Shown: positions 6,451 to 60,936 of the stretch, in pieces | Layout of the letters: each line of letters begins with the position of its first letter | How positions within the stretch are numbered: position 1 is the first letter of the stretch | Origin: Heliocidaris erythrogramma | Lineage: Eukaryota; Echinodermata; Echinoidea; Camarodonta; Echinometridae | Direction: 5' to 3' | DNA length: 64,000 nt | Assembly (NCBI GenBank): GCA_025617745.1 | Contig: CM046858.1 | Span: 53,422,545-53,486,544, forward strand | Notes under the pieces: model-generated | Databases searched by the model: none | The model's input: only the letters and a program-made list of their open reading frames with translations | Told to the model about the DNA's origin: nothing | Program-made: the position numbers and the translations under genes

Positions 6451-7495
6451 TTGAAAGTGGAAAATGCTCTCCCGCGTTGAAATAGATACCCTCTGAAGTA
6501 AAGCACCCTTTCCCTTATATAATTAGCCCTCAAAGAGCCAAACAACTGTCCTAACATGTTGGATTTAGTGAAAACTGAAAAAAGACCAATGTAACAAATT
6601 AGTGAAAGGTTAAACAAAGTCGGATTAATAATACGAAAGTTAAGATTGTTTACAAGTTTTGATTGCTAAATGTAAGTAAATATCAAATTGACGAATTTTA
6701 GAAAGTGACGTATTTGGGGACCACATCAAAGCGTAATACATTTCAGTTCAGTTCAAAACCTTTTTTCTTTTGGGTTTTTACTGATATGTGTTTAAGATAG
6801 CAGGTAAGTGGGGGGGGGGGGGGGGTTGTCTGGGTTTGGGTATAGTCATTTTATTTTTATTAATTTGTAACTTGGTTTGACTGTAGTTTGCAAATTTGAT
6901 TGATTTGTGTTTTTTTATTATTTTGTTTCTCTTTTTTTATTGTTTTTTTTATTATATAATTGTGTTATGATATAATTTTTAAAAATATATAATGCTATGT
7001 GGGACCCCAAGGAAGAACAGCGGCATTTTGTAAATACTGCTGAATTTGGGTCATCCTCCGTTTATTAAGCTCATGTATACGTTGTAGTTTATGAAATGTA
7101 TGTGGTTTTCTTAATACGGAAATAAATACAAACAAACAAACAAACAAGGTCGCTCATAATAAAAAAAACAAGTTTCTACTCTGTCATAAACATTAACAAA
7201 TCATATCTTAATCATTTTGAGTATTGGAACAAAATGGAAAGTTGTTTGGCTCTACATCACAGTGACATTACCGATTTGTCAATTTGAAATATCAATAATT
7301 ATGATGTTCAGCGATTACATTTTTTTAGCAGTCATTTCTCAGTATTCATGTTATTTATCCGATTTCCTTGAAACATGTCACTATTTTTTGTTTATTATTC
7401 TGTTTCCCTTCAAAGCAACTTGTTATAAAGGATCGATTGTCCTTTAGATTATACACTTCGTGACAAAATAGGTGCTCTAGCTTCGTTGAATACTT
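6451..7495. repeat. Tandem duplication, unit 2
   Basis: A head-to-tail copy of 5403-6450 with a few substitutions and a shorter G run (about 6809-6826). The high identity over a full kilobase of non-coding DNA implies a recent duplication or an assembly duplication. Confidence 0.85.
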
Positions 7496-9075: not shown

Positions 9076-10905
9076 ATGGCAACATCTCGTCTTCCTAGCT
9101 TAAACTGCTTAATTTGTAATGAACTACTAGACGACCAAAAGATTTTGGACTGTGGTCATACCTTTTGCGTAAAGTGTTTGACATCGACTTTAGCCGAAAA
9201 CAAAATTAAATGTCCACTCTGTAGACATGTAACTTTTGTGGAGGATGGAGATATATCGAAGCTTCGCACAAATGTAGTACTATCATCTGTAGTAGACGAT
9301 GTGAAAACCATTCACAAATGTGATGCAAAAGACGATCCCGACCATGAGGAAAACGCTGTTTTCTTTTGCTATGAATGCGATTCCTACTTTTGCGTCACTT
9401 GTTTTGAGATACACAATCAACTAAAGCCAAATAGACGTCACGAAACAATTAAAGCTGCAGAACATAAACAACAAATACTACTCATTCCAACCGTAACTAG
9501 CAAAGGGAATACTGAGAATAAACGTCGTGAATCACGAGTATGCGTTGATTGCAATAAATTTGTATCGTCGAATTCGGTAAAAGATCGCTTACATGCATTA
9601 CGAAATCACACTGTCATCACTGAATCGGAGTATGCTTCTAATACAATATTACGAGCGGAGCAGCTTCAGGCCAAAGTAACTGAAACACTCACAAAGATTC
9701 GAACCATCAACACTTCGTATACTAATCTTGAGGAGGAAGTCAGGGCGTTTTCGTATAATGTGATTTCTGAAATCAATGGAGCGTACTTGGCGAAAGAAAG
9801 ACAACTACAATACTGGAAATTGACCTTAATTAAACATTGTCAGACATTGCAAGAAAATGCTAGCCAACGATTCGATGAGATTGAGCGTAAAAGAGCATCA
9901 GATACACGGAAGTTAATGGACATTAGTAATCTTGTCGGTTCCAGTTTGGAAGACAGTCATAACATTACAGCATTTGCTGAATTATGTGATAACCTCTCTA
10001 GATTGTTGACAACAGTTAATGCCAAATCACGAGATGTCCCGTTAGAAGAGAAAATGAGAGTGGCAAGTAGCATGTCTTTTCATGATAACCAAGCAGAGCA
10101 CGGCGCATTAAAAACCTCTACCTGGCGAAAGTTTACCCATGTCCTCCAAGTCGGTAAGCATATGACGGCATTTGACATAAACAAAGAGGGGCGATTAGCA
10201 ATAGGCTACTTCGAGGGTGGTGTAGAGTTCCATGACGATGGGCAAGACACACCAAATTCAAGGATAGTCCTTGAAGATACGAGAGTCTCTGGTCTTGCAT
10301 TCTCTAGAGATGATGGTCTCGTACTTCTCGATATAAACAACACGATTCAACTCTTCAGTGCTGAGATGGAGCATAGGAATATTGCATATGGAACTCTCAC
10401 ACACGAGGAAGGTGGCGACGGTTGCTTAGCTGTTGACGGTGATGACAGTATATACATAGGCTACAGATCTGTCAACAAGATACACATCTTTTCGCGAAAA
10501 GGTGGCAGAGCTATTTATGACATAGACTGTTTACCTTATACACCACAACAAATAGCTGTCCTGTCAAAACAAAAAATGCTAGTGGTGGATGGATCTGTTA
10601 TAATAATGTTCACCATTGCAGGTCCTAGCAGTACTCAGATTATGTACCTAGGATGCCATGGTTACCCATGTGTGTCCAGCGATGGATCTGTATTGGTTGC
10701 ATGGGTAGACAAGGCAAATAATCTCCTCAGAATCGACAAATACACCAAAGATCTCACAGTGGTTAGGTGTGTGTATAGTAGTAATACTATTGATCTATCG
10801 GGGAGGGCGTGGTATTTCCTAAGGGAGTTCTCAAGTGGACATTTGGCCTTTTGCACTGATAAGAAATTGACAATCCTGAAAGAAGAGTTAGTGGACATTA
10901 AATAG
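9076..10905 (+). CDS. TRIM-type RING/B-box protein with C-terminal beta-propeller-like region, intronless
   Basis: The 609-residue ORF is uninterrupted. Residues 11-49 form a C3HC4 RING finger: C11, C14, C26, H28, C31, C34, C46, C49, with CGHTFC and CPLCR. Residues 82-122 form a B-box-like zinc site (C82, H90, C98, C101, C106, C109, H113, H122). A degenerate second Cys pair lies at C156/C159 with H173 and H178. Residues about 185-300 are charged and heptad-rich, as expected for the TRIM coiled coil. From about 340 to the end, repeated short beta-strand-like blocks (AFDINKEGRLAIGY, SGLAFSRDDGLVLLD, CLAVDGDDSIYIGY) suggest a beta-propeller of NHL/WD type. Proteins of this class are E3 ubiquitin ligases, often expanded and intronless in marine invertebrates. 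Function is inferred; partner and substrate are unknown. The ATG at 9076 precedes the RING by ten codons, which is normal. It is surrounded by repeats and has no obvious co-regulated neighbour. Confidence 0.92.
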   Translation: MATSRLPSLNCLICNELLDDQKILDCGHTFCVKCLTSTLAENKIKCPLCRHVTFVEDGDISKLRTNVVLSSVVDDVKTIHKCDAKDDPDHEENAVFFCYECDSYFCVTCFEIHNQLKPNRRHETIKAAEHKQQILLIPTVTSKGNTENKRRESRVCVDCNKFVSSNSVKDRLHALRNHTVITESEYASNTILRAEQLQAKVTETLTKIRTINTSYTNLEEEVRAFSYNVISEINGAYLAKERQLQYWKLTLIKHCQTLQENASQRFDEIERKRASDTRKLMDISNLVGSSLEDSHNITAFAELCDNLSRLLTTVNAKSRDVPLEEKMRVASSMSFHDNQAEHGALKTSTWRKFTHVLQVGKHMTAFDINKEGRLAIGYFEGGVEFHDDGQDTPNSRIVLEDTRVSGLAFSRDDGLVLLDINNTIQLFSAEMEHRNIAYGTLTHEEGGDGCLAVDGDDSIYIGYRSVNKIHIFSRKGGRAIYDIDCLPYTPQQIAVLSKQKMLVVDGSVIIMFTIAGPSSTQIMYLGCHGYPCVSSDGSVLVAWVDKANNLLRIDKYTKDLTVVRCVYSSNTIDLSGRAWYFLREFSSGHLAFCTDKKLTILKEELVDIK

Positions 10906-15472: not shown

Positions 15473-15626
15473 AATTATGAAGGTGATACACAGAAAGTAT
15501 TTTAAGTTTTTGAAACAGAGGCATAGAATGACTAAGGAAAGCAGAGTTTGTAATCATTCTAACTATTCATTTTGTAATAAGCTGTCAAGTATATATTTAT
15601 TACCATACAATTATACCATAATTTTA

Positions 15627-15793
15627 TATCATAATTGATAGGATTGAAGTAAATTGAATATATCATAAAGAAATGTGAGAAAATTACAATGCCCCGACCG
15701 GGATTCGAACCCGGGACCCTGGTCGGGGCATTGTAATTTTCTCACATTTCTTTATGATATATTCAATTTACTTCAATCCTATCAATTATGATA
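15627..15793. repeat. Palindrome with SINE-derived centre
   Basis: Arms of about 72 bp (starting TATCATAATTGATAGGATTG at 15627) are near-perfect reverse complements. The centre reads GGGATTCGAACCCGGGACC, the T-arm/B-box of the tRNA-derived SINE seen intact at 15956. The structure looks like an inverted duplication formed inside a SINE copy. Confidence 0.9.
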
Positions 15794-15955
15794 TTTAATT
15801 ACAAGTTCAAATTGTCCTCTATAGAAATTCGTTGGCATGGATTTGCCCGACTTTTGATATATATAGCGTACGCATGGAATTGGTATGGATGTACCCCCTA
15901 CGCTCGATGGAAAGAGAGGGGCTATATGTGAGATTGTTACTTTGCTTCGACGGGA

Positions 15956-16050
15956 GCCCGGATAGCTCAGTTGGTAGAGCACTGGTCATGTAATCCAGGG
16001 TCCCGGGTTCGAATCCCGGTCGGGGCATTGTAATTTTCTCACATTTCTTT
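15956..16050 (+). mobile_element. tRNA-Thr-derived SINE
   Basis: 15956-16027 folds like a tRNA. The acceptor stem GCCCGGA pairs with TCGGGGC with one mismatch. The D arm contains an A-box (TAGCTCAGTTGGTAGAGC), the anticodon arm is CTGGT-CATGTAA-TCCAG, and the T arm contains a perfect B-box (GGGTTCGAATCCC). The TGT at the anticodon position points to tRNA-Thr, but position 33 is A instead of the invariant U. The sequence continues without a break into a TTGTAATTTTCTCACATTTC tail that also occurs at 15665-15765. It is therefore a SINE, not a functional tRNA gene. Confidence 0.75.
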
Positions 16051-16390
16051 ACCAAAATTTTAGTGAGGCAATATCAGAGTATTATATAGCATAAGTAATA
16101 TCTTTTAAGGAACAAATTCTCTTAATTAATATTCCTAGAGATCTAATTTGATATTTTGTTTAACATGGCTTTTCCATTTCATATCATCATCTATGTTAAT
16201 ACCTAAAAATTTTACAGTTTTCTCTTGTTGTATGGGTTTATTATCAATATATAGTTTAACATCATTTATTCCAATGGATCTATTTCCAAAGATCATAAAA
16301 TGGGTTTTCTGTATATTCAAAACCAATGTTATAGCTATAAACCAATGATTAATTTTTCCTAATTCAACATTCATGATAGCAATTAATTTG

Positions 16391-23625: not shown

Positions 23626-23829
23626 TCAGCAGCAGGTTGATTGCTCTTGAAGGAAAGATATGTACAGCTTGTTCAACTTCGCTGCATTGCTATCGAAACG
23701 CATCACAACAATGTAAAAATTTAGATAATTACGGAGGATATTGAAGAACAGAAACCCAGAAACCCGTTGTTCAAGCTTTATTTTATGCAAGCTAAATTGC
23801 AGAAGTGGCGAAAAACACATAAAATAGTA
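23626..23829. other. Left flank of the giant foldback element
   Basis: About 200 bp of unique-looking sequence separating the LINE from the foldback terminus. Its last bases, ATAAAATAGTA, resemble the first bases beyond the right terminus (ATAAAAATAGTG), a candidate imperfect target-site duplication. Confidence 0.5.
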
Positions 23830-23945
23830 GGTCTGTGAAGTTGTTTTGATATTCGTTATTCGATATTCGATATTCATTTGATATTCATTTGATATTCATT
23901 TGATATTCAAAATTGCCTAAAGTCGGATTTTTTTTGACGTATACC

Positions 23946-26247
23946 TGGCGCCCACGGTCCCCGATCTAATGCCATGATGACCTTGACCTTGACCCCTCAA
24001 GGTCACGGTCAAAAATGGCGCCAAATATGAATACTAGCTTTTTGACGAACTGAAAGTGGCCCAAAATCCAAAATTTTTTCACCCCTGCCTGGCTCCCACG
24101 GTCCCCGATCTAATGCCATGATGACCTTGACCTTGACCCCTCAAGGTCACGGTCAAAAATGGCGCCAAAAATGAATACTAGCTTTTTGACGAACTGAAAG
24201 TGGCCCAAAATCCAAAATTTTTTCACCCCTGCCTGGCACCCACGGTCCCCGATCTAATGCCATGATGACCTTGACCCCTCAAGGTTACGGTCAAAAATGG
24301 CGCCAAAAATGAATACTAGCTTTTTGACGAACTGAAAGTGGCCCAAAATCCAAATTTTTTTCACCCCTGCCTGGCGCCCACGGTCCCCGATCTAATGACA
24401 TGATGACCTTGACCTTGACCCCTCAAGGTCACGGTCAAAAATGGCGCCAAAAATGAATACTAGCTTTTTGACGAACTGAAAGTGGCCCAAAATCCAAAAT
24501 TTTTTCGCCCCTGCCTGGCGCCCACGGTCCCCGATCTAATGCCATGATGACCTTGACCTTGACCCCTCAAGGTCACGGTCAAAAATGGCGCCAAAAATGA
24601 ATACTAGCTTTTTGACGAACTGAAAGTGGCCCAAAATCCAAAATCTTTTCACCCCTGCCTGGCGCCCACGGTCCCCGATCTAATGCCATGATGACCTTGA
24701 CCTTGACCCCTCAAGGTCACGGTCAAAAATGGCGCCAAATATGAATACTAGCTTTTTGACGAACTGAAAGTGGCCCAAAATCCAAAATTTTTTCACCCCT
24801 GCCTGGCGCCCACGGTCCCCGATCTAATGCCATGATGACCTTGACCTTGACCCCTCAAGGTCACGGTCAAAAATGGCGCCAAAAATGAATACTAGCTTTT
24901 TGACGAACTGAAAGTGGCCCAAAATCCAAATTTTTTTCACCCCTGCCTGGCGCCCACGGTCCCCGATCTAATGCCATGATGACCTTGACCTTGACCCCTC
25001 AAGGTCACGGTCAAAAATGGCGCCAAAAATGAATACTAGCTTTTTGACGAACTGAAAGTGGCCCTAAATCCAAAATTTTTTCACCCCTGCCTGGCGCCCA
25101 CGGTCCCCGATCTAATGACATGATGACCTTGATCTTGACCCCTCAAGGTCACGGTCAAAAATGGCGCCAAAAATGAATACTAGCTTTTTGACGAACTGAA
25201 AGTGGCCCTAAATCCAAAATTTTTTCACCCCTGCCTGGCGCCCACGGTCCCCGATCTAATGCCATGATGACGTTGACCTTGACCCCTCAAGGTCACGGTC
25301 AAAAATGGCGCCAAAAATGAATACTAGCTTTTTGACGAACTGAAAGTGGCCCTAAATCCAAAATTTTTTCACCCCTGCCTGGCGCCCACGGTCCCCGATC
25401 TAATGACATGATGACCTTGACCTTGACCCCTCAAGATCACGGTCAAAAATGGCGCCAAAAAAGAATACTAGCTTTTTGACGAACTGAAAGTGGCCCAAAA
25501 TCCAAAATTTTTTCACCCCTGCCTGGCGCCCACGGTCCCCGATCTAATGACATGATGACCTTGACCTTGACCCTCAAGGTCACGGTCAAAACTGGCGCCA
25601 AAAATGAATACTAGCTTTTTGACGAACTGAAAGTGGCCCAAAATCCAAATTTTTTTCACCCCTGCCTGGCGCCCACGGTCCCCCGATCTAATGACATGAT
25701 GACCTTGACCTTGACCCCTCAAGGTCACGGTCAAAAATGGCGCCAAAAATGAATACTAGCTTTTTGACGAACTGAAAGTGGCCCTAAATCCAAAATTTTT
25801 TCACCCCTGCCTGGCGCCCACGGTCCCCGATCTAATGCCATGATGACCTTGACCTTGACCCCTCAAGGTCACGGTCAAAAATGGCGCCAAAAATGAATAC
25901 TAGCTTTTTGACGAACTGAAAGTGGCCCTAAATCCAAAATTTTTTCACCCCTGCCTGGCGCCCACGGTCCCCGATCTAATGCCATGATGACCTTGACCTT
26001 GACCCCTCAAGGTCACGGTCAAAAATGGCGCCAAAAATGAATACTAGCTTTTTGACGAACTGAAAGTGGCCCTAAATCCAAAATTTTTTCACCCCTCCCT
26101 GGCGCCCACGGTCCCCGATCTAATGACATGATGACCTTGACCTTGACCCCTCAAGGTCACGGTCAAAAATGGCGCCAAAAATGAATACTAGCTTTTTGAC
26201 GAACTGAAAGTGGCCCAAAATCCAAAAAAAATTTCACCCCTGCCAAT
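23946..26247 (+). repeat. Left arm: about 16 tandem 144-bp units
   Basis: Units begin CTGGCGCCCACGGTCCCCGA and recur at a spacing of 144-145 bp (one unit is 138 bp through loss of a 6 bp CCTTGA repeat). Each unit contains TGACCTTGA twice with overlap, then TCAAGGTCA, then ATGGCGCCAAAAATGAATAC and GACGAACTGAAAGTGGCCC. Variation between units is limited to a few positions (GCCATG/GACATG, CCCAAAATCC/CCCTAAATCC). Frames open across the array are not genes. Confidence 0.97.
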
Positions 26248-27149
26248 ATCATCAGATTTAACATCAAATGTCAGATTATTGCAAAAATATTGTAGTTTTC
26301 TTAATACATGAAAACTTACGATCTGAAGTCAGTGTATATGGGGTTACATTCAAATTTAGTGTGAAAAGATGATTTCTTGGTAGAAAGTCAGGTCTCGGAG
26401 GCATAATGTACTACGATAACTTTCTTGAGCTTGCGATTGAGATTATACAGCCAGCCTCCGTACTTTGCGCTAATTGATATCGAATTCAACCCCACTCACA
26501 TATAATGTCACACATGTATGTACCGCTGTGACGTCCTTCAACCTTCTCGGGCCGCTCCCATGATATGCGATTTTCACTAACCGCACCTCGATTGGCTTGC
26601 GACTCGCTCCCTAGATATGAATATCAGAAAACAATGCGCACAGCCCATTGTCCGGGAACGGTCGCTCCCTAGCCTCCTAGGCCAGCGCAGAGGGGGAGCT
26701 GGGCGGCTTAGTGCCCCCAAGTGCTAAGCGGCGGCTCAGCGAGATCAATCTGCATGCGACATCAAGAGGTCGGTGCATGTACCGTGTTAAAAACATGTAC
26801 AGTGTACAGTGTTAAAAGCTGGCTCAGCTCAGCTCAGCTCAGCTAAAATTAGCTCTGCCCATGAGCCCTTTCGCTCCTTAGACCCTCAAAAAAGAGCTTC
26901 CTCGATTAACCATTTAGCTCCTTACCCCCCCCCCCCCCGGTTTTGAGATTGGCAGCGGCACACCTACATCCTAAAACAGGTTGAGTGCCCCCCGGGCTCC
27001 AACCATTACCAGAAAACAACCGTGAAAGGTATAATGACGGAGATGAAGCACGGCAACTATCATGACTATACCATGATCCAGGCGCGGATCCAGGATTTCT
27101 TAGGGGGGGGGGGGGGGGGGGCCCAAATTTTAAATCATGTGAGCTACAT
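26248..27149. other. Left interior of the giant foldback element
   Basis: No gene is recognised. It includes a GC-richer segment (26520-26760), a short GCTCA repeat (about 26820-26845), a C run (about 26925-26938), and CAGGCGCGGATCCAGGATTT at 27079 followed by a long G run. That motif is a terminal motif shared with the MITE at 30974. Confidence 0.5.
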
Positions 27150-28325
27150 CCCTGATAGCAGAGAGTGGTAAAAGTGACGTGATATTGACGTGATATTTAC
27201 GTCGTGGTTTACGTCTTTTTTACGTCCTGTAATTACGTCAATAAGACGACAACTTGCACCAACGCAAGACATCATGAGGACGTCTTATTTTGACGTCATC
27301 TTTACGTCTTCCAGGTCAGTGAATGACAACTTCATGACGTCTTGCAAATCACCAAATGATGACTTTTTGACGTCTTTTGGACGTCTTGCTGGTCACTAAA
27401 TGACCATTTTATGACGTCTTTTAGAGGTCTTGCGGGTGGTAAAAAATGACGTGATATTTAAGTCATAGTTTACGTCTTTTTTACGTCCTGTAATTACGTA
27501 AATAAGACGACAACTTGCACCAACGCAAGACGTCATGAGGACGTCTTATTTTTACGTCATATTTACGTCTTGCAGGTCAGTTAATGACAACTTCATGACG
27601 TCTTGCAAATCACCAAATGACTACTTTTGGACGTCTTTTTGACGTCTTGCAGGTCATTAAATGACCACTTTATGACGTTTTTAGACGTCTTGCGGGTGGT
27701 AAAAAATGACGTGGTATTTACGTCGTGGTTTACGTCTTTTTTACGTCCTGTAATTACGTCAATAAGACGACAACTTGCACCAACGCAAGACATCATGAGG
27801 ACGTCTTATTTTGACGTCATCTTTACGTCTTGCAGGTCAGTGAATGACAGCTTCATGACGTCTTTTAGAGGTCTTGAGTGTGGTAACAAATGACGTGATA
27901 TGCTAGACCCCCAAAAGACGTCAAAGAATCGTCATTTGGTGAACTGCAAGATGTCCAAAAGACGTAATAAAGTCGTCATTTAGTGACCTGCAAGACGTAA
28001 AGATGACCTCATGACGTCTTGCGTTGGTGCAAGTTGTCGACTTATTGACGTAATTACAAGACATAAAAAAGACGTAAATCACGACTTAAATATCACGTCA
28101 TATTTTACCACCCGCAAGACGTCCAAAAGAGGTCCAAAAGTCGTCATTTGGTGATTTGCAAAGTCATCATTTAGTGACCTGCAAAACGTAAAGATGACCT
28201 CAAAATAAGACGTCCTCATGACGTCTTGCGTTGGTGCAAGTTTTAGACTTATTGACATAATTACAGGACGTAAAAAAGCCTTAAATCACGACTTAAATAT
28301 TACGTCATATTTTACCATCTGAACC
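27150..28325. repeat. Left GACGTC array of the nested element
   Basis: Direct repeats of about 261 bp (the ATTTA[CA]GTC..GGTTTACGTC phrase at about 27191, 27452 and 27713) are followed from about 27905 to 28320 by partial copies in the opposite orientation. The arm is thus itself a foldback. Conserved words include TTACGTCCTGTAATTACGTC and ACTTGCACCAACGCAAGAC. Confidence 0.9.
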
Positions 28326-30485
28326 ACTAATTACAATCTGTTTAAGTGTAATGACGACCTGTCAAAAGCATTCATGAGCACATGGATACCAAAATTCAAA
28401 GTACATACATGTACAATCACTGAAAAATAAGTTATGCATAATATACAAGGCAGACATAAAATCAGTTTCACATTTTTAATGCCACTGGTATGAAAATCAG
28501 CTGCAAACATTCATAAAACATACATAACAATGATAATCAAAACTGATGTGTGAGTAATTATATACAGGTATATGTTAACAGGTGGATTATTAAATCACAC
28601 AGTGGGAAACACAAGCTACCCTAATGAAAAGAGTTGTGAAAATGAATGGATTTTTGGCACGAAGTAAAAAAAGGGTAAGAAAATACATTAAGTATTTGAA
28701 CATTTACCAAAAAAACAGCATCACTGACAAAATTGGAGGGGAAAGTACCTGATTTCTATGGTCTCAAAAATGTTAATGTTGAATGTACATGAATTACTAA
28801 TTCATGAAATAGCTTGAGTATAAGATTTTGTTAAGAATGTTTTGCCTCATTTGCATAAAGTAGATACTCAAAATGCTGAATTATTTGCAAAGCATTTTTT
28901 TTTTCAATTTGGGTTTGAATCTAGATCTTGCACCAGAACAATGTTTTATACAAGAACAAGGAAAAATAAAGAAAGTTAATTATGGAACGAAATGCTAGGA
29001 ATCTATGTAAGACAACAAACCAAATGGTGGAACTGTAATCAGAATAAGTTGGTTAAAAATAATGCAAGTTGATTTACCCTTGAATTTCTTTGACAAATAT
29101 ATTTTTCACAAGGAAAAATGCCTGAATGAAGCATATTAATTGTACGTAGCATTTCAGTCCAGTTCATAAGAAATAAATACGCACAACTTGGTGACTATGA
29201 AAAGTCCATTATCAACATAAACTTCATAGTGGCTCTTTGAATAATTGATGTACATGTATAACTAATGAATTCTCTGTCCTGTGGATTGGCAGACGAATAT
29301 AGTCTTAGGAACAATAAAATAAAAGATTTTGAGTTATGAAAACTGCAACTCTCAATCATTGCAAGATATGGCATATTGACAAAATCTATCAAGCTCTTCT
29401 CCTAAAGAAAATGCGCTATTGGTAAAAATACCCTTTTACATCTACCAATATATTCTACAAAAAGTATGAAAGTGCTGAAAATTACATACACAGTTTCAAT
29501 TCAGTTCAATTTTATTTTAGTTTCTAATATTTTATATCAAATAAAACTTTGTCATATGTTTAAAGGTTATCAGGAGTACTTGCAGTGTGATTTCAGTTTG
29601 ACACTAACTTTACTTTTGAATTGCTTGTCAATTGCCATGTTTTAACTTCAAATTCTACAAATATTTAGGACATTTTAGGTGCTTTATTTTCATGGAATGT
29701 ATTCATAAAATGCTTTTAGGTTGGATACAAATGGATGGGAACTCTCTCCATTTTCTTCCATACATTACCAATACTCCAGATGACATTTAAATGTACATTT
29801 ATGGACAGAACTAACTGCAGTTTAGTATAAGTTTAAGTTTCATGTCATGCAATCATGAAACAAGTAGAACATTTACATTTTATGTGAATAAAACATTTAG
29901 CGCTCCTTATGGAGATAGAGGCACCGAAATTGTATATGAAATACATGCAAGCATCTGTGGAATTCTTAAGAGCATCCTAAAAAACAGATAGTTGTTTGAA
30001 ATATAAAATATTTCATTTCAAAATTTCATTTTTATTTTCTTGACCAGTCCTTGCAAATATTTAAATGGGCGAGTAGATGTCATCACCTCATAATTTTTTT
30101 CAAATACACTGTATATGGATTTCTCGAGCTCACACTCGTAACACATATCCCCATAGCAAAATGTATTATTTCTCCTTTATTTCGGGCGGTGATAAGACAA
30201 GTTTTAGATTCTCATAGCTGAAATATGAAACTTTTGTCATTTCTGTATATGAAAAGGATAGCAAATTGTGAGGCAATGATATCATCACCTCGCTCATTAA
30301 AACACTAAGGACTGGTCAAAAAGTGTTTTTCCCCAAAAATATGAACTTTCATAATGTCATAACTTCCTTATTTCTTATCCAATATCTTTTAGCATTGTTT
30401 CATATTTAATTTGTTTCTGTATGTTTTAAACCTGTATATAGAGAGGATTCTTTCTTTAATTATTGCCAGTTGTAACTACAGCTTT
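28326..30485. other. Interior of the nested element, non-coding
   Basis: AT-rich sequence without a recognisable gene. The segment around 30030-30450 has the style of a diverged MITE (GACCAGTCCTTGCAA near 30041 and an inverted ACTAAGGACTGGTC near 30305). It lies immediately 3' of the last DUF4806-like exon on the minus strand and may include its 3' UTR. Confidence 0.45.
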
Positions 30486-30973
30486 TTACTGATTATTTGA
30501 GTATTCCTCTGTGTCCATTGGCAAGGCTTCTTCTTCCTCCTGCAGTTCTGGAGTTACAGGCCTCCGAAGCTCCAGATCATTCTTTGGTACGTTTCGATAA
30601 ATGTACTTCAAGTAGTATTGAATGCCACTTTCCACCTCGTCAAGCGGAGCAGATCTTGTCCGTTAGTTGCCCCTCACAGTCGCTGGAAAAGAAATAGAAT
30701 GTGAAAGGAAAAAATAATTAAAAATTTAAATATTACCTCTCAGATCCGAAGGATACTGTATTGCTTCACTTCTTTTATGTCTCACATTTAGCAAATACCT
30801 GAAATACATGGCCTGAAAATAAACTGCAATGGCCTGAATTCAGGCTTTTGCCTGGAAACTGGCATCTTTGTACACATATACTGACCACTAAAATTGTTTT
30901 GTAGACCTTTCTTTTTTTTTCTTTTTGTACCACGGGAGATGGCGAGTTCACTTCTAGGAAACTTTGGCAGTAA

Positions 30974-31150
30974 CAGGCGCGGATCCAGAGGGGGGCGCAA
31001 GGGGCGTGCGCCCCCCGCCCGTTTTGTCTGACAAAGTATGCCCCCGGACCCCCTAGATGGCCGTTTGGCTTCGTCAAGCGGAGGGTTCCTCAGTGTGCGC
31101 CCCCTTTCTGAAATGCGCCCCCCTTTCTGAAAATCCTGTATCCGCCCCTG
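30974..31150. mobile_element. 177-bp MITE with GGCGGATCCAG-type ends
   Basis: It begins CAGGCGCGGATCCAG and ends CTGTATCCGCCCCTG, imperfect inverted repeats of about 15 bp. The flanking AGTAA at 30969-30973 and 31151-31155 is a direct repeat, a candidate 5 bp target-site duplication. It lies in the intron between exons C and B of the DUF4806-like gene. Similar ends occur at 27079 and 36032. Confidence 0.65.
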
Positions 31151-31401
31151 AGTAAAGCTGTTTTTCAATTAAAAACAGAATGCTAGAAGCATAACGAACT
31201 TCAAAAGGCACCAGTTCAAACACTGTAATGAAGCTAACAGCCCTTAGAGGTAAAAACATCTCTGAAGATCTTTATCTTAATTTCTGCCTAATGATGCAAA
31301 CAACAGTCCTTCTGGATTAGAGCATTATGGCAGTTAAGCAGGGGAAGGCAGAAAGAGTTAAGCATACAAACATACCTATTTGACAATATTTTGAAACACT
31401 G

Positions 31402-31449
<48 letters not shown>
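31402..31449. repeat. (TA)n microsatellite
   Basis: Alternating AT dinucleotides for nearly 50 bp inside the intron between exons B and C of the DUF4806-like gene. Confidence 0.95.
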
Positions 31450-31451
<2 letters not shown>

Positions 31452-32611
31452 AAGTTATATATATCCAAGTTACTTTGTGATAAATAATGTGGGGTCCAAA
31501 AAATAATTTAAATGTAATCTTCTAGATGTCTGCAACTATCTGCTTATGATTCAAGAAGAAAAGAAAATCAACAGACTCTTCTGAAGATGAGAAAAATGTA
31601 TATACATCTAATTACCAAAGATAACATCTATCATCGCCTTATATCCCGAAAACTTGTGCTTCTGCCGCGTTGTCCCATCCAACTGAATTGCACAGACAAC
31701 TGAGGGTCCATCATTGTGTCCAGCACACGCCTTACTGATTCTTTGGTGGCCCCTCCACATCTCTTTAAGTATGACATCTGGAAAAATGAAAGGGAATAGC
31801 AGTAAACATGTATTATTCTCACTTTCATGCATCTTCCTATCTGATTTAAACATGCATAAGATCTCACAATTGAAACCGATACTGATTTCAAAAGTTCTTT
31901 CAAACTTAATTATTCCAAGCAGAGGTCAATTTCATTATAGGCATGCAAACTCTGGAAGACCTACAAGGTGGATGCAAAGCATTGTTTTTCCTCCTGCAAG
32001 CTCTGCAAACAACCTGAAATTGATAACTATATTGCAAAGAAAATGCATTTAGCAGCAGCTTTGCAAGCAAGACAAAAACAAACTTGCTGGCTGTTTGAAG
32101 TCATGACATAGCTGCAGAACAATTAATTGACCTCTCCTGTATGTAATAATGGAAATATAATATTCTCCAAAAATAATTGTCAATTTCAATTCTGGAATGA
32201 ACATGCATGTCACAAACAGTATATTTAATCCAACTTTCTACAATCATGACAATAAACAAATATGCTGTTGAAATTCTGATAGTTAATTTTCCCAATTAAG
32301 TTGAATGTTTGCATAAATAATTGAGTATAAAGTGCAGAAGAAAGTTAATGAATCAACTGTATAACACTATTATAAGCAGATAAAGACACTCACAAATTGT
32401 TTTTTTTTTGCAAGATCCTCCTGAAGGATCGTGTTGACCTCACATAAGTCTTGAACGTTATTAAGTGGAAGAGAGGGTATTCCTTCCGGTATATCAGCAA
32501 TTTCAGCCACTCTGCCCTTCTCCATTTTGGCACGGATTGCCCCAAGAAGTTTCCGGTTTTCCCTCACCTCCGACATGACTTCCTCCATCTTATTATGCAA
32601 TCGTCTCAATT

Positions 32612-34544
32612 CTGAAATTAAATTGAAATATGAGAGCATTTATTTGTGTTTCTTTTTGTATTTTTTCCTTATTCAATTGTAAATATTGTACATTCCAATC
32701 CAATCAGGGTATTTATATAGCACCAATGTCTAGTTGCCTAATCAAAGGCGATGTTGAGACTGAAAAAAATACCAAAATGTCTCTTTTGATTTCTGCCTGA
32801 CACCATACAATTTTAGGCAAATTATTTATTTCCCCTAATTTTCTACCTTCAATTTCATGACATTTTTAATTTAGAAACACATTTGATGTGACATTTGGGA
32901 GTAAATTTCATGACCTTTGAACTGGGCCATATTTATTTATTATTATATTATTATTTATTTATCTAATCGGCTCATTTCGTGTCATGCACTGCCGGTTTCC
33001 CTGAGCCAAATAGGAACAACATTCATCCAAGGGTTCTCTTGATATTGTGTAGGTGCGATTTTGTTCAGGCAGATGGATGGACCGACAACCTGAAAACATA
33101 ATGCACCTACAAGCCCTAACATGAGTATAGGCAATAAAAGACAATCATAGAATATGTTTGGTTTGTTTAGAAATTTCGAATTTTTCACTCTTTTTTCTGA
33201 AATGTACGTATGAACAGATCGAGGTGCCATCATGAATGCCCCCCCCCCCCAGAAAAGAATAAGTGACATAAACTAATAAATAAATCAAATGAAGGAATAA
33301 ATTCATCAGAGACTTGCCTGATGGTGCCTTATATTTAAAAGCACTTCACTCTAACTCTAACAGTTTAATATTACAGTAACGTTAGTAACAATATTATTGG
33401 ACCAAAAACATAGACTATAGGGTACACTGCCTAACAGTTAGTATTTAGACTACTTATTTCGATGTTTACTTCAACGTAAGTAGACTTAACTCTGGCAGTA
33501 TTTAAATGATCACTAAATGATAATTTGTAATTGTATATATAATTTAATGTCCCAATGACAGTGAAAAAATACAGCACTCAGCAGATGCATAATTTCGACT
33601 GTAATGTATAATAACGGTCACTTGACAAATGTGATTGATAGTATACTGACAGTTCTACAAACAGTGTGACTAATAATAACACACGTTGTCTCACTATGAA
33701 CATGGCAAATAAAGAAGCGGACAAAATATACAGCTCCTCATTGTACCTTCCACACTTGCTCTGGTAGACAAAAGAATATCCCTTCATTGCTATTATGTAA
33801 GATTATGTAGAGCAGGTGTCACATGCATATTCACCTGTTCTACTTATCTTACATAATAGCAATGAAGGGATGTTCTTTTGTCTACCAGAACAATTGTGGA
33901 GGGTATAATGAGGATCTGTAAATTTTTTCTCCGCTCTCTTTTGTCATTGCATGCATCGTGTTCCTAGTGTCTATATGTTACTGTCTTAGCTACACATAAT
34001 GCACAGTGTGGTGTGAATACCTAACTTACTTGCCACGAAACCTGAACTTAAACTTTGATGGAAGGTCTTTAGAAGATCAACGAAGACGAGTTCGTATGCA
34101 TAAGAAGTTAGAGTAACCTGTTCCACTGCTATTTTTTCACATGCACACACTCCACGCTGAGTCGAGCAGCGCGGCAATGCACGCACGTGAAACGACGGAC
34201 GAGTAAAACGATCACGTTAAAAAACACAAAACACAAAAAACAAACAAAACAACAAAAAAAAACCATTATGTCAGCAAGACAATTGTATACATTGCGTACC
34301 GGCAAAAGGCACCGGCCGTGCATGCCTAGCCTACCAGGCTAGCCGTGTATCAATATCACGCGCTAGTTGAGTGGCTCGATGACGTAGCCTGCAGTCAATA
34401 CTGTATCATTTAATTGTATTAATTATCCTTTTTTCTTCTTTCCCTTATGTTTGCAATAGCAAAAAATTATTTAGCTTTTATATCCAAAGTCTAGCGAATG
34501 CACGTTCTGATATCCTTTTTTTCTAGGGCACATATCGAACCATA
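32612..34544. other. Nested-element interior upstream of the DUF4806-like exons
   Basis: No certain gene. On the minus strand a good splice acceptor (TATGTTTTCAG) occurs at about 33090, followed by an open stretch reading VVGPSICLNKIAPTQYQENP, but no clear donor follows, so an additional upstream exon is only possible. A TTTATATAGCACC phrase near 32710 resembles the 3' ends of LINE/SINE copies elsewhere in the window. The hairpin at 33731-33918 is listed separately. Confidence 0.4.
33731..33918. repeat. 188-bp imperfect palindrome
   Basis: The left arm from 33731 (CAGCTCCTCATTGTACCTTC) and right arm ending 33918 are reverse complements over about 85 bp with scattered mismatches, around a short loop near TCACATGCATATTCA. 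It could form a long hairpin. It could be a solo foldback MITE or a miRNA-like precursor, but nothing favours transcription. Confidence 0.85.
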
Positions 34545-35714
34545 AGTTGTATATTGACGTCATAATCACGTCATGAACTAGTCATTAAAAAAATATAGAC
34601 ATTGTCTAATTAACCCAAACCGTTCCCATGTTTAGATTTAAACTGAATAATCGTTCATAAGTGGTAAATAAAATTACGTCATGAACTAGTCATTCGGAGC
34701 TGGCCGTCAGTGGCAATTAAGTCACGCAATAATTAGGTTTTTTTTTGGTCTTGAATAATTGTTCATATAAGTGGTAAATAATTGACGTCAAAATCACGTC
34801 ATGAACTAGTCATTCTTAGCTGGTCGTGAGTTGGAATGGAAGTCACGTAATATTAACGTCGAATTTTGGTCTTGAATAATCGTTAAACAAGTGGTAAATA
34901 CTTGACGTCAAAGTCACGTCGTTATAAACTAGTCATTCGTAGCTGGTCGTGAGTTGGCATTGAAGTGACGTAATAATTACGTCGTTTTTTGGTCTTGAAT
35001 AATCGTTCATATAAGTGGTAAATAATTGACGTCAAAATCACGTCATGAAATAGTAATGGATAGTGCGATTCTTAATTGGTCGTGAGTTGGCAATGAAGTA
35101 ACGTAATAATTACGTCGTCTTTTGGTCTTGAATAATCGTTCAAATAAGTGGTAAATAATTGACGTCAAAATCACGTCATGAACTAGTCATGGATAGTGCA
35201 ATTCTTAACTGGTCGTGAGTTGGCAATGAAGTGACCTGATAATTACGTCTTTTTGGGGGTCTTGAATAATCGTTTATAAGTGGTAAATAATTGACGTCAA
35301 AATCACGTCAAGAAATGGTCGTGGATGATGCAAGTCGTAACTGGTCGTGAGCTGGCAATGAAGTGACGTAATAATTACGTCGTTTTTGGTCTTGAAAAAT
35401 CCTTCATATAAGTGGTAAATACTTGACGTCAAAATCACGTCATTAACTAGTCATGATTGTAGCTGGTCGCGAGTGGTCAATGCAGTGACGTAATAATTAC
35501 GTCGTTTTTTGGTCTTGAATAATCAATCATATAAGTGGTAAATAATTGACGTCAAAATCACGTCATAAACTAGTCATCCAAATAAGACAATACATACTCG
35601 TCTTAGAAAGTCGTCACGAAGACGTCGTGATAACGTCGTTCATACGACGTATGACCAGTTGACCAGAATACGACCAATATACGACGTCTTTAAGACGTCC
35701 GTCTGCTATCAGGG
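34545..35714. repeat. Right GACGTC array of the nested element
   Basis: About nine copies of a unit of roughly 115-125 bp containing AATTGACGTCAAAATCACGT, GAACTAGTCAT, GCTGGTCGTGAGTTGGCA, AGTGACGTAATAATTACGTC and TTGGTCTTGAATAATCGTTC. Perfect TGACGTCA words recur in most units. The last 130 bp before the terminus change to CGTCTTAGAAAGTCGTC-type sequence that is closer to the left arm. Confidence 0.9.
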
Positions 35715-36512
35715 ATATTGCAACAATAATGGTGACAAATGGCGTATCTGACGATCTCGGGGGGGGGGGGGGGGGGGGGGGAGTGCAAAAGCATAATTAT
35801 AAAGGGCTTTCACTCCCGCCGGAAGAAAATTCTGAAATTTTTAAAGTCCATACATATTATAATGACTAAAGTTTCTAAATTCCGAAAGAAAATATTTACA
35901 ATTTGACACCTATGATTTCGAGGGGCTACTTATTCATCTTTTGTTCGGTAATAACTAACGTCTGTTTCTGATGGTGTCATTATGGTCATGTACGCTAACT
36001 TCCTCGAAATCCGCCCTAAACACTGAGCAGGGGCGGATCTAGCTTTTTTCCAAGGGGGGGGGGGGGGGTTGACTCAACGACGGAGCATCGTCTACAAGCC
36101 GCGTAGCGGCGAGCCAATTTTTTTTTGCTATTTTGAACCCCCGTATTGATGTTTTCCTGGCATCTACTAACGCAATGGAGACCATAAAAAGGCGCGGAGT
36201 GGTGATGTTCGCGAGCCGCGTAGCGGCGAGCCAATTTTTTGGCTATTTTGAACCCCCGTAAGTGATGTTTTCCTGGCATCTACTAACGCAATGGAGACCA
36301 TAAAAAGGCGCGGAGTGGCGATGTCCATTACTGTGGCAAATCATTACTCCTCGGCTACAGTCGGCGAAGATATCAAACAGTTATGTATCTGAAAAGACTG
36401 AAATGGCATATTCTGTAAATCAAATTTCAAAAGGAACAGCACTAATATTTTTTGTGCAAACCAGTCATTAATTGTCGCACGAGATAATAGAGACAATATC
36501 GGACACGGTAAT
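35715..36512. other. Right interior of the giant element, with duplicated 120-bp segment
   Basis: Contains a G run (about 35759-35781), a GGGGCGGATCTAG MITE-type end at 36030 with a G run, and two tandem copies (about 36098-36210 and 36211-36325) of a segment. That segment reads GCCGCGTAGCGGCGAGCCAA through CCCCCGTA and ends GGCGCGGAGTGG. No gene is recognised. Confidence 0.55.
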
Positions 36513-36948
36513 CAGTCAGACCCAACTCCGTAATACCGAGCACAGGTATATACTCCGAAAACGGCGTATAGAACAAGATGAATATAGAGCCCTCATCGTT
36601 CAGTATGAGACAGTGTGTACAAAAGGCATGTGGAAAATCTTGCAAAGTCAACCTGCCAACGGTATACATATTCTTAAAAATAATGCTGCGTGTCAATTAT
36701 CTTCAAAATCCTTGAATGATTCGTCATGTGAAGTGAATTTCAAATGACAAACATTTGAAATAAATATATCCGCAGCATTATTTTTGAAAAATATATTATC
36801 AACAGCAGTTCGACACTGCACGATTTTCCCCATGCCTTTTGTACACACTGCCTCGCACTGAACGATGAGGGCTCTATATTCATCTTGTTCTATACGCCGT
36901 TTTCGGAGTATATACCTGTGCTCGGTATTACGGAGTTGGGTCTGACTG
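36513..36948. mobile_element. 436-bp foldback MITE with 5-bp target-site duplication
   Basis: The left end CAGTCAGACCCAACTCCGTA at 36513 is matched by its reverse complement ending at 36948. The arms extend about 190 bp with moderate divergence. GTAAT flanks both sides (36508-36512 and 36949-36953). It has no coding capacity of its own. Short open frames on opposite strands encode the same peptide because the element is palindromic. Confidence 0.85.
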
Positions 36949-37130
36949 GTAATGGTATGATTAAAAAAATAGACTTTATTGATATGCTCTATATGCATGA
37001 TATCTATTAAGGAAATCGCACCTGAAATTGCATTATGTTAGCCCTCGCAAGTTGCAAAAGAGCCCCCATACATTGCTATTAGGTTCAATACAAAATGGAA
37101 TTTGGAATGAAAAGAAAAGATCCCTTTCCC

Positions 37131-37161
<31 letters not shown>

Positions 37162-37775
37162 GTTTTGGTGGGGGGGGGGGGGGGATGCCCGATTTTTTTC
37201 CCCTTATAGAAATATCTTTATTAAATATTGCTTTTGACTTTGCAATACTTTATAAACACATTAATAACAAAATACTGCACATAATAGAATTAACAAACAA
37301 ATCATTTTAATTATACAGCACATATAGCAAAACTAGTTTACAGCAAAATTATGTTCACCCATCTGTTATCAAATGAGATGAAATTGTTATTCTTAAATTT
37401 TAACATATAGATATTCAGGATGGTAATGCCTTTGATGAGCATTTAAATTACTTTATTAATAGTAAGCTTTTTTTTTTCATTTCCAGGAAACTTACATCCC
37501 TTCTGTTCTTTTCTTTTCTTATTCCTCCGCGTTTTCTTTCCCTTTATATCCTCTTTTCTTTCCCTTTCACCGTTCTGTTTTTTCTTGGGAGATGAGAACG
37601 TGGGAGCACCCTTTCGGCCTTCGCGCCTCCGGCCTCCTTCCCCCTTCCCCCTTTTCCTTTTTCTTCCTCATTTTTCCCCTTTCTCTCATCTATCCCTTTT
37701 CCTTCCTTCTCCCTTTTTTATGGAGGTGGGGGGGGGGGGTGGAACCGTGGAAGGCCCTTTTGGTGGAAAATTTTT
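36949..37775. other. Low-complexity stretch before the right arm
   Basis: No gene. It holds a (CT)n tract (about 37131-37158) with a G run (37168-37182), AT-rich DNA, a long C/T-rich tract (37500-37715) and a G run (about 37728-37738) just before the first 144-bp unit. Confidence 0.6.
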
Positions 37776-40206
37776 GGATTTTGGGCCACTTTCAGTTCGT
37801 CAAAAAGCTAGTATTCATTTTTGGCGCCATTTTTGACCGTGACCTTGAGGGGTCAAGGTGAAGGTCATCATGTCATTAGATCGGGGACCGTGGGCGCCAG
37901 GCAGGGGTGAAAAAATTTTGGATTTTGGGCCACTTTCAGTTCGTCAAAAAGCTAGTATTCATTTTTGGCGCCATTTTTGACCGTGACCTTGAGGGGTCAA
38001 GGTCAAGGTCATCATGTCATTAGATCGGGGACCGTGGGCGCCAGGCAGGGGTGAACATTTTTTGGATTTTGGGCCACTTTCAGTTCGTCAAAAAGCTAGT
38101 ATTCATTTTTGGCGCCATTTTTGACCGTGACCTTGAGGGGTCAAGGTCAAGGTCATCATGGCATTAGATCGGGGACCGTGGGCGCCAGGCAGGGGTGAAC
38201 AAATTTTGGATTTAGGGCCACTTTCAGTTCGTCAAAAAGCTAGTATTCATTTTTGGCGCCATTTTTGACCGTGACCTTGAGGGGTCAAGGTCAAGGTCAT
38301 CATGGCATTAGATCGGGGACCGTGGGCGCCAGGCAGGGGTGAAAATTTTTTGGATTTTGGGCCACTTTCAGTTCGTCAAAAAGCTAGTATTCATTTTTGG
38401 CGCCATTTTTGACCGTGACCTTGAGGGGTCAAGGTCAAGGTCATCATGGCATTAGATCGGGGACCGTGGGCGCCAGGCAAGGGTGAAAAAATTTTGGATT
38501 TTGGGCCACTTTCAGTTCGTCAAAAAGCTAGTATTCATTTTTGGCGCCATTTTTGACCGTGACCTTGAGGGGTCAAGGTGAAGGTCATCATGTCATTAGA
38601 TCGGGGACCGTGGGCGCCAGGCAGGGGTGAAAAAATTTTGGATTTTGGGCCACTTTCAGTTCGTCAAAAAGCTAGTATTCATTTTTGGCGCCATTTTTGA
38701 CCGTGACCTTGAGGGGTCAAGGTCAAGGTCATCATGTCATTAGATCGGGGACCGTGGGCGCCAGGCAGGGGTGAACATTTTTTGGATTTTGGGCCACTTT
38801 CAGTTCGTCAAAAAGCTAGTATTCATTTTTGGCGCCATTTTTGACCGTGACCTTGAGGGGTCAAGGTCAAGGTCATCATGGCATTAGATCGGGGACCGTG
38901 GGCGCCAGGCAGGGGTGAACAAATTTTGGATTTAGGGCCACTTTCAGTTCGTCAAAAAGCTAGTATTCATTTTTGGCGCCATTTTTGACCGTGACCTTGA
39001 AGGGTCAAGGTCAAGGTCATCATGGCATTAGATCGGGGACCGTGGGCGCCAGGCAGGGGTGAAAATTTTTTGGATTTTGGGCCACTTTCAGTTCGTCAAA
39101 AAGCTAGTATTCATTTTTGGCGCCATTTTTGACCGTGACCTTGAGGGGTCAAGGTCAAAGTCATCATGGCATTAGATCGGGGACCGTGGGCGCCAGGCAG
39201 GGGTGAAAAAATTTTGGATTTTGGGCCACTTTCAGTTCGTCAAAAAGCTAGTATTCATTTTTGGCGCCATTTTTGACCGTGACCTTGAGGGGTCAAGGTC
39301 AAGGTCATCATGGCATTAGATCGGGGACCGTGGGCGCCAGGCAGGGGTGAACAAATTTTGGATTTTGGGCCACTTTCAGTTCGTCAAAAAGCTAGTATTC
39401 ATTTTTGGCGCCATTTTTGACCGTGACCTTGAGGGGTCAAGGGCAAGGTCATCATGTCATTAGATCGGGGACCGTGGGCGCCAGGCAGGGGTGAAAATTT
39501 TTTGGATTTTGGGCCACTTTCAGTTCGTCAAAAAGCTAGTATTCATTTTTGGCGCCATTTTTGACCGTGACCTTGAGGGGTCAAGGTCAAGTTCATCATG
39601 GCATTAGATCGGGGACCGTGGGCGCCAGGCAGGGGTGAAAAAATTTTGGATTTTGGGCCACTTTCAGTTCGTCAAAAAGCTAGTATTCATTTTTGGCGCC
39701 ATTTTTGACCGTGACCTTGAGGGGTCAAGGTCAAGGTCATCATGGCATTAGATCGGGGACCGTGGGCGCCAGGCAGGGGTGAAAAATTTTTGGATTTTGG
39801 GCCACTTTCAGTTCGTCAAAAAGCTAGTATTCATTTTTGGCGCCATTTTTGACCGTGACCTTGAGGGGTCAAGGTCAAGGTCATCATGGCATTAGATCGG
39901 GAACCGTGGGCGCCAGGCAGGGGTGAACAAATTTTGGATTTTGGGCCACTTTCAGTTCGTCAAAAAGCTAGTATTCATTTTTGGCGCCATTTTTGACCGT
40001 GACCTTGAGGGGTCAAGGTCAAGGTCATCATGTCATTAGATCGGGGACCGTGGGCGCCAGGCAGGGGTGAAAATTTTTTGGATTTTGGGCCACTTTCAGT
40101 TCGTCAAAAAGCTAGTATTCATTTTTGGCGCCATTTTTGACCGTGACCTTGAGGGGTCAAGGTCAAGTTCATCATGGCATTAGATCGGGGACCGTGGGCG
40201 CCAGGT
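37776..40206 (-). repeat. Right arm: about 17 tandem 144-bp units with higher-order structure
   Basis: The same 144 bp unit as the left arm, reverse complemented. Variant units are arranged in blocks. Five consecutive units (about 37776-38495) repeat almost base for base at an offset of exactly 720 bp, and later units show a 576 bp (four-unit) periodicity, for example the GTTCATCATGG variant at 39591 and 40167. This indicates multi-unit unequal exchange or conversion within the arm. Confidence 0.95.
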
Positions 40207-40559
40207 ATACGTCAAAAAAAAATCCGACTTTAGGCAATTTTGAATATCAAATGAATATCAAATGAATATCAAATGAATATCAAATGAATATCAAATGAAT
40301 ATCGAATATCGAATAACGAATATCAAAACAACTTCACAGACCATAAAAATAGTGTAAATGCGAAGTTTACGAGCAATGTATTTTGTCGCAGAAGCACATT
40401 CACGACTACTGCGTGAATGCTAATGAATATGCAGTAGAGTTCAGTGTATCCATGCGGCGACGTGTTAGATAAACTAGAGTGGTCATTTGTATTTAAAAAT
40501 TAAGTACAAATCCTCCGTATCCTCCGTCTTCCAAGAAGCAGCCCCGTCAGATCATATGC

Positions 40560-47867: not shown

Positions 47868-48534
47868 TGTGACCCTCCACCACAAAACGACCAATAAGTA
47901 GCAATGGGAGTTTTAGAGTAAACAGCTGAAAAAGGTGGTTTGGGGTGGAAATTTTTATCTTTTTTTTTTTTTGGATTTTCTGAAAGTTCATTTATTAATC
48001 TACCATCTGACAAAATTTCAGGTTAAAATACCTTGTTGAAATATGTTTTTACTCTCATTCAAAATGGCCATGTTTTCCTGGACATTCAAACTCTGTGTGT
48101 CAACTTGCTGGGATTATACTTCACATCGCTTTTCTGGTATAGCTTAAAAACTATGCACTGTCTGATATTCAAAATCTAAATAAACATAGAAATATATCTA
48201 TTCTGAAGGTATAGAAAGTTTTAATCCAATCCGATTAGTACTTCACAGTGTACGCTAGGGAGTTTTGACTCAACCGTTTGTGCGACAAACAATAGGACAC
48301 AGATTAGGCGCTCTTAAATGGTCACTCTTTTTTAGAGCCCGTTTTCTCTATTGTTATGGTCATTAGCCTGTCTGACACGTTGACATTCTCATTGTAATTT
48401 ACAAGGGTTTGCTTAGTCCATATAAGACAAATTATATATCATTTCAAAGCTTAGAATCTAAGCCTTCATACTGTGTTGAAATTTTAAAAACTCAAATTTC
48501 CGACTTATTGGTCGTTTTGTGGTGGAGGGTCACA
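47868..48534. mobile_element. 667-bp TIR element with TA target duplication
   Basis: The left terminus TGTGACCCTCCACCACAAAA and the right terminus, its exact reverse complement, share at least 31 bp. TA flanks both ends (47866-47867 and 48535-48536). The interior is AT-rich and non-coding. It splits a sequence that looks like a LINE 3' end on the minus strand (TTCAATTCAAGGTTTATTAA at 47778). A Tc1/mariner-type or other TA-targeting transposase could mobilise it. Confidence 0.85.
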
Positions 48535-60208: not shown

Positions 60209-60299
60209 TAGATTCAGCGTAAAAAAAATCTTGTTGAAAAAATTATATTCAGCTGGTTACAGTAATTACGTACAAAGAAAAACATTCCTCCATGAACTG

Positions 60300-60900: not shown

Positions 60901-60936
<36 letters not shown>

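Follow-up and report, generated by a model that had tools for sequence, protein, structure and literature searches.

The window analysed here, 64,000 nucleotides of the sea urchin Heliocidaris erythrogramma (C6:53422545-53486544; contig CM046858.1), carries a foldback element whose two arms are opposed arrays of a 144-bp satellite, and we compared it with the genome (1.064 Gb searched, 26 contigs). The mitochondrial COX1 of this genome has AAA at Asn, ATA at Ile and AGA at Ser positions, and cox1 is followed by tRNA-Arg, with tRNA-Lys further along; such codon use and gene order point to an echinoderm, most likely a sea urchin. The structure is real and it is a transposon. We think it probable that it represents a non-autonomous Foldback-type DNA transposon moved by a trans-acting enzyme, most likely of the Mutator superfamily (Rehavkus/Phantom kind). 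A terminal domain and satellite arms are common to many copies, which have 9-bp duplications at their borders, and the interiors are exchangeable, the arms enclosing non-coding sequence (type A), almost nothing, or the gag-pol region of a gypsy retrotransposon (type B).

Architecture of the element

An earlier note, made from the letters of this DNA, had described a 16.5 kb element with inverted termini, subterminal minirepeat blocks (3 copies at one end, 5 at the other) and two arrays of a 144-bp unit in mirror orientation, and all of these are present. Tandem Repeats Finder (TRF) gives 16.0 and 17.0 copies for the two arrays with 97% matches, and the arms are 96.5% identical in inverted orientation over 2,445 aligned columns. 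The true ends lie one base further out than had been noted, at 23829 and 40343; the family ends are AGGTCTGTG...CACAGACCT, the final T being replaced by A in the window copy. The flanks, taken earlier for a slightly mutated target-site duplication, are TAAAATAGT and TAAAAATAGT, a 9-bp duplication with one A inserted in the right copy (only 5 of 9 positions match without a gap). The features are listed below with their evidence in brackets; L numbers denote stretches of the genome and C numbers its contigs.

23829..40343, no strand: whole foldback, type A, nested insertion included (arm alignment, flank comparison)
23820..23828, plus strand: left target-site duplication TAAAATAGT (flank comparison)
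23829..23943, plus strand: left terminal domain, AGGTCTGTGAAGTTG... (116-bp probe matches, 26-mer count)
23876..23908, plus strand: three 11-bp minirepeats ATTTGATATTC
23944..26244, plus strand: left arm, 16 units of the 144-bp satellite (TRF)
26245..27149, plus strand: left part of the type A interior, common to sister copies (comparison with sister copies)
27150..35714, no strand: nested element with terminal inverted repeat CCCTGATAGCAGA, 2-bp AT duplication and ACGTC-rich tandem repeats, outside the foldback proper (uninterrupted site in L011, L018 and L026)
35715..37761, plus strand: right part of the type A interior (sister-copy comparison, probe 37200-37540)
37762..40205, minus strand: right arm, 17 units of the 144-bp satellite, including a recent duplication of five units (720 bp) (TRF, unit comparison)
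40206..40343, minus strand: right terminal domain, last base A where the family has T
40242..40296, minus strand: five minirepeats in inverse orientation
40344..40353, plus strand: right target-site duplication TAAAAATAGT, one extra A (flank comparison)
47880..48411, plus strand: empty site related to the insertion site of sister copy L028 (aligned at 86% across the junction, single target at about 48173-48181)

The whole 16.5 kb had been thought to move as one unit, and this part of the earlier description goes too far. Sequence comparison shows that 8,565 bp at 27150-35714 are absent from the sister copies L011, L018 and L026, and this segment has 13-bp inverted ends with AT duplicated at its borders. 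It is evidently a second element, inserted after the foldback, and since it makes up about half of the 16.5 kb, the full length need not have moved together; on this comparison the foldback proper measures about 7.9 kb and the 16.5 kb are a composite. The ACGTC-rich tandem repeats of the nested element have units of 261 and 133 bp, and exon-like frames lie on its minus strand at about 30.5-32.6 kb without a Pfam hit. A DUF4806-like gene was considered here because of a resemblance and was rejected, as separate scans of three pieces returned no Pfam match at E values up to 1. Fragments related to the nested element are found at about 60.3-63.6 kb of the window.

Dispersed copies, target duplications and an empty site

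The 26-bp end occurs exactly 278 times in the genome, and its reversed control does not occur. A search with the 116-bp terminal block, which the earlier note had proposed, returned at least 40 full-length matches of 96-100% identity, the window included, and one partial match (40 of 447 candidates scored), and paired ends are present at other loci. Among the first 100 of the 278 exact places (C1 to part of C6), neighbouring ends less than 25 kb apart are oriented +/- in 14 cases and -/+ in none, with nine ++ and nine --. Part of the same-strand neighbours are duplicated ends and tandem blocks of end and satellite (L014, L018). In L018, four same-direction ends at 187-3891 belong to end-plus-satellite blocks repeated in tandem at 1.0-1.4 kb spacing, and at C4:4383430-4388740 four same-direction exact ends follow each other at 1.7-1.8 kb, as judged by position only. 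Such same-direction series are higher-order repeats built from the transposon end.

Target duplications were compared in 17 paired copies, taking for the C21 copy the outer of its two right ends; stretches with one end or with unclear pairing (L009, L014, L015, L016, L018, L020, L023 and single-end loci) were not counted. A perfect 9-bp duplication flanks 12 of the 17, two more match at 8 of 9 positions (L010, L025) and the window copy has its extra A, so that the consistent duplications envisaged in the earlier note were found; L017 and L030 (2/17) have flanks without one. When left and right flanks were taken from different copies, none of 272 combinations was perfect at 9 bp, and the two flanks of one copy never agreed fully at another length between 4 and 12 bp (0/17).

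The earlier note had also looked to empty sites, and this expectation was borne out in part: one related site exists for a sister copy, and for the window copy itself there is none in the fetched sequence, against which 14 copies were tried. L028 is inserted in a repeat, an uninterrupted relative of which lies inside the window (86% over 550 columns). Weaker spanning matches were obtained for L012 (75%, in L010) and L019 (72%, within its own stretch). Tandem-repeat inverted ends of variable length, dispersed paired ends, a duplication of constant length and a related empty site are together what is expected of a Foldback-type transposon, as the earlier note had proposed. Two foldback copies on different chromosomes, L005 (C18:38.93 Mb) and L008/L022 (C6:42.28 Mb), have an identical right flank, which reflects either a single insertion that was copied along with its segment or separate insertions into the same repeat. 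A scan of IMG/VR with the 25-bp end gave no matches.

Type A interiors and nearly empty copies

Without the nested element the type A interior of the window consists of 905 and 2,047 bp, which align with L011, L012, L017, L018, L022, L026 and L027 at about 80-98% in long blocks. A 341-bp probe from it (37200-37540) gave at least 40 matches, all at 96-100% (40 of 294 candidates scored). The interior had been said to lack a recognisable transposase, and this agrees with a Pfam scan of the sister copy L011, whose type A interior showed no convincing domain in any of the six frames, the window's own interior lying outside that scan; two weak hits (E 0.024 and 0.054) belong to families unrelated to transposases and were taken as chance. 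The interior of L022 contains about 4.1 kb of LINE-like frames, recognised by eye. In L006 and L010 one arm follows almost directly on the other.

Gypsy gag-pol between the arms

A gypsy-type pol interior was found in L013, L019, L021, C21:42832867-42847383 and C1:72418554-72428422 (L030), and the start of gag could be read in the C21 copy and L030; in L013, L019 and L021 it has been lost through internal deletion. Pfam profiles identify reverse transcriptase (RT), RNase H (RH) and the integrase core in L030, together with a weak zinc knuckle and a weak aspartyl protease (PR), and the integrase zinc-binding domain in L019. The type B interior is a decayed Ty3/gypsy gag-pol that begins at the start codon of gag and breaks off two codons ahead of the stop of pol. 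On the left of the C21 copy the satellite passes through ...CTAATGCCATGATG directly into gag, and L030 has one change in that string. On the right, the inverted satellite takes over from pol with CAAGGTCAAGGTCATC, two codons short of the stop of the C4 copy, at a position that is identical in 10 of 11 junctions, L033 having a short deletion.

The integrase search gave 16 loci at 90-100%, the next match being at most 56% except for the second piece of one locus (150 of 2,496 candidates scored). Downstream of pol, which was read in 13 of the 16, satellite is present in 11 and absent in L034 (C4) and L037 (C2); in L037 the pol end is missing altogether, yet a satellite-gag junction is found on its 5' side. 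An exact 26-bp end lies at most 2.3 kb away in the remaining three. With PR-RT-RH as the query, 11 loci matched at 93-100% and the next at 54%, except for the second piece of L019 (77 of 5,870 scored). In the gag-junction search (39 of 233 candidates scored) at least 15 loci span satellite and gag, whereas four match gag only, from query position 71-75 (71 being the ATG), and five more match inner gag only. The four loci with gag from the ATG but no satellite lie at C4:942024, C1:48234654, C14:28669863 and C5:616065. Gag-pol therefore exists both in and out of the foldback arms, with the break at the start codon. The C4 copy ends pol with a native RS-stop, and a high-copy repeat starts less than 60 bp further. 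Capture of gag-pol into the arms would be the simplest reading of these sequences, the reverse direction being a further possibility.

Ty3/gypsy long terminal repeat (LTR) retrotransposons have direct LTRs around gag-pol and make target duplications of 4-6 bp. At the type B junctions read, the coding region abuts the inverted arms and leaves no room for LTRs, and 9-bp duplications flank four of the five paired type B copies (L013, L019, L021 and C21), L030 being the one without. Changes in PR-RT-RH (89 non-synonymous to 26 synonymous, the sum of 10 pairs among 5 copies) appear neutral, and those in integrase (61 to 30, the sum of 6 pairs among 4 copies) would permit mild constraint; the pairwise counts are small and non-independent. 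Selection on the type B proteins was considered and rejected, PR-RT-RH being close to neutral and integrase slightly below, and changes of this kind are as expected of cargo or dead copies.

In type B, inverted satellite arms enclose a retrotransposon coding region with limits very close to those of its reading frame, and it has been multiplied to no fewer than 15 loci. No description of gypsy gag-pol between foldback arms was found in the literature searched, the scope of which did not extend to Repbase and most subscription papers. That the satellite arms act as a shipping frame and have made gypsy gag-pol the cargo of a DNA transposon, gag starting where one arm ends and the stop of pol lying within the other, is a speculation to which we give little credence. 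If it were true, and type B were expressed as RNA and protein, retroelement proteins would spread with the foldback and without LTRs, and other elements could be supplied with capsids or reverse transcriptase, in effect a functional class I/class II hybrid.

Satellite units of the arms

Mean identity between satellite units is 0.955 among type A, 0.957 among type B and 0.956 between the two types (at most 16 units per copy; eight type A and five type B copies), and four of six exactly shared units are found in both types. In the window, identity is 0.963 and 0.970 within the arms and 0.964 between them, and the left array of the C21 copy reaches 34 units. This likeness, together with the 5-unit duplication, would fit frequent exchange among arms. 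The family is a well-sampled case of satellite DNA living as transposon arms, and since the arm units are alike across copies and the interiors are swapped, the link between transposons and the birth of satellites is testable within one genome. The genome-wide satellite search gave 14 candidates with common words skipped, a figure that is no measure of abundance.

The 9-mer TCAAGGTCA, which we take to be a nuclear-receptor half-site of the FTZ-F1/SF-1/ERR type, occurs 85 times on both strands of the arms (23944-26244 and 37762-40205, 4.7 kb) and is absent from the 59 kb made up of the element interior and the window outside the element. An origin of the satellite from a gypsy LTR was considered and not adopted, as 16-197 of 200 shuffled sequences did as well as the alignments of the satellite or terminal domain to the L041 and L042 LTRs. 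Of four primer-site-like strings from the L041 and L042 LTR elements, one matches the satellite at 11 of 13 positions (3 of 5000 shuffles), and the matches of the remaining three were equalled in 375, 150 and 729 of 5000. This derivation may therefore be regarded as a weak lead. The C4 sequence past the gypsy pol was likewise rejected as an ancestor, its alignment being unconvincing (13 of 1000 shuffles on one strand, 235 on the other).

Mobilization and alternative explanations

In the mechanism that we favour, a transposase of the Mutator superfamily (Rehavkus/Phantom kind), supplied in trans, would bind the ends, and perhaps repeated sites in the arms as well, and would cut and paste the bound unit. 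The arms would grow and shrink through unequal exchange, and interiors would enter between them by capture of the Pack-TIR kind. The window copy was inserted as a type A element of about 7.9 kb and was later hit by the second element of 8.6 kb.

A search of the genome with the PF10551 profile gave 31 hits to the transposase of Mutator-like elements (MULE) from 82 candidates. An open reading frame (ORF) of 861 aa scores 40.6 bits for MULE, above the cut-off, and 23.6 bits for PHD, just below its cut-off of 24. Because it has three full protein-level copies in the genome at 100% (rounded), the MULE+PHD element on C5 has probably been mobile recently. One copy is flanked on one side by an array of no fewer than 41 units of 40 bp and on the other by a single unit in inverted orientation. 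A further copy of the element lies at C5:35.05 Mb. The region C5:7594300-7609000 (L048, L044, L049) has an apparently intact MULE gene with a PHD match and a large 40-bp array at one side. A Rehavkus-like enzyme in this genome appears plausible by analogy, because 9-bp duplications are known elsewhere in such elements and both the MULE+PHD ORF and the 40-bp array are present.

Several observations weigh against this assignment. No transposase gene was found between the family ends where L011 was scanned in all six frames; most of the 278 ends lie outside this reading. None of the 11 PF10551 hits on C1-C6 is within 60 kb of an exact 26-mer among the 100 places considered, and the other 20 hits are beyond the range of those places and were not compared. 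The best likeness between the L044/L045 MULE family and the terminal domain is a 16-bp match (E 0.001-0.003); beyond it and shorter or imperfect matches at chance level, the family terminus and satellite were not seen in L044/L045 or L046/L047, the fetched MULE+PHD sequence stopping short of the true ends of that element. As described in the excerpts cited here and below, Rehavkus combines a minisatellite and a PHD finger with 9-bp duplications, and its inverted ends, listed at 26-400 bp, are shorter than the present arms (PMC6446971; duplications in Table 1). The present family shares the 9-bp duplication (8-11 bp in MULEs) and the mini- or satellite repeats at the ends, and a MULE transposase with a PHD finger was not found between the same ends in the L011 frames. 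The assignment of the transposase draws on duplication length and architecture, by analogy, and we do not claim membership of Rehavkus or Mutator, because the MULE+PHD ends were not reached, the likeness is limited to 16 bp and no MULE was seen between AGGTCTGTG ends.

Merlin- and P/Galileo-like transposases also leave duplications of about 9 bp, and a foldback of equal kind moved by such a non-MULE enzyme is an unlikely explanation but one to be taken seriously. It would account for the lack of a MULE tied to the family ends, and Galileo, of the P superfamily, has long, internally repetitive inverted ends (PMC3688188, PMC3573991). However, the duplication measures exactly 9 bp in 12 of the 17 copies, with no perfect case at 7 or 8, and elements of the Mutator/Rehavkus type are documented that combine arms of satellite or tandem repeats with duplications of 9 bp (PMC3169594, PMC6446971, PMC10218199).

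We consider it very improbable that the type B gag-pol is the family's own engine, acting through its integrase or a reverse-transcription step as a class I/class II hybrid. The coding region is joined directly to the arms at the satellite-gag junctions and mostly also downstream of pol, no relatives appear at 56-90% (integrase) or 54-93% (PR-RT-RH), second pieces apart, among the scored candidates, and the integrase ratio would allow for mild constraint. However, gypsy-like integrases leave 4 bp (Ginger) or 5 bp (TDD-4/5), and the 9-bp duplication and AGGTCTGTG ends of this family differ from the 4-bp (or 5-bp) duplications and TGT-type ends of Ginger (PMC2836005). Moreover, PR-RT-RH looks neutral, four loci have gag from the ATG without satellite, the C4 copy retains a native pol stop, and type A and nearly empty copies have moved without gag-pol. 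Finally, long near-identical inverted arrays are a classic misassembly risk and the flanks of L017 and L030 do not match, but an inverted satellite duplication or assembly chimera has practically no chance of explaining unlinked loci with independent 9-bp duplications and a related empty site.

Comparison with known foldback elements

TU elements are foldback elements of sea urchins, to which the present family is alike as a sea urchin foldback, by description only. Sea urchin is named among the hosts of foldback elements (PMC4079207). The earlier note regarded the arms as unusual and the family as possibly undescribed; satellite arms have precedents in Tetris and Rehavkus-1_TC, whereas the family itself may be undescribed, Repbase lying outside the comparison. 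Tetris of Drosophila virilis, with 220-bp tandem repeats in its inverted ends, is likewise a non-autonomous foldback composed of a flanking domain, repeats of about 220 bp and a variable middle, makes duplications of 8-10 bp and has arms that seed satellite arrays, but its sequence units and host are different and gag-pol cargo was not found in the excerpts describing it (PMC4079207). Rehavkus-1_TC of Tribolium (9.5 kb) has the 164-bp satellite TCsat23 in its inverted ends, mostly as five and eight monomers (PMC10218199). Rehavkus thus resembles the present family in its 9-bp duplications and satellite repeats within inverted ends (PMC6446971, PMC10218199), but it encodes a PHD-finger transposase, which was not found in the L011 interior (PMC6446971), its arms are shorter than the 16, 17 or 34 units seen here, and the hosts listed in these excerpts are arthropods and annelids.

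Tm1 of root-knot nematodes (Phantom-like) also has foldback ends with variable tandem units, 9-bp duplications and several classes; it differs in its units of 8-21 bp, its asymmetric outer motifs and a known copy with a putative transposase (PMC3169594). In Pack-TIR and Pack-MULE elements captured sequence is similarly multiplied by inverted ends, and those with many copies have likely spread by transposition (PMC8277862), but there a host gene is captured and here a retrotransposon gag-pol. As far as these excerpts allow comparison, the present family differs from known satellite-armed foldbacks in the length of its arms, in interiors that can be exchanged and in a gag-pol cargo cut back almost to the reading frame.

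Other features of the window

A single frame of 610 aa at 9073-10905 is TRIM-like: it contains a RING finger, and its match to the B-box falls slightly short of the cut-off. L023 has a frame of similar look (appearance only). Two tandem duplications are present, at 5403-7496 (units of about 1.05 kb, 97.6%) and 60122-62753 (units of about 1.08 kb, 99.8%). Inverted repeats lie at 15619-16051, with a tRNA-Thr (tgt) gene at 15956-16027 beside and partly within them.

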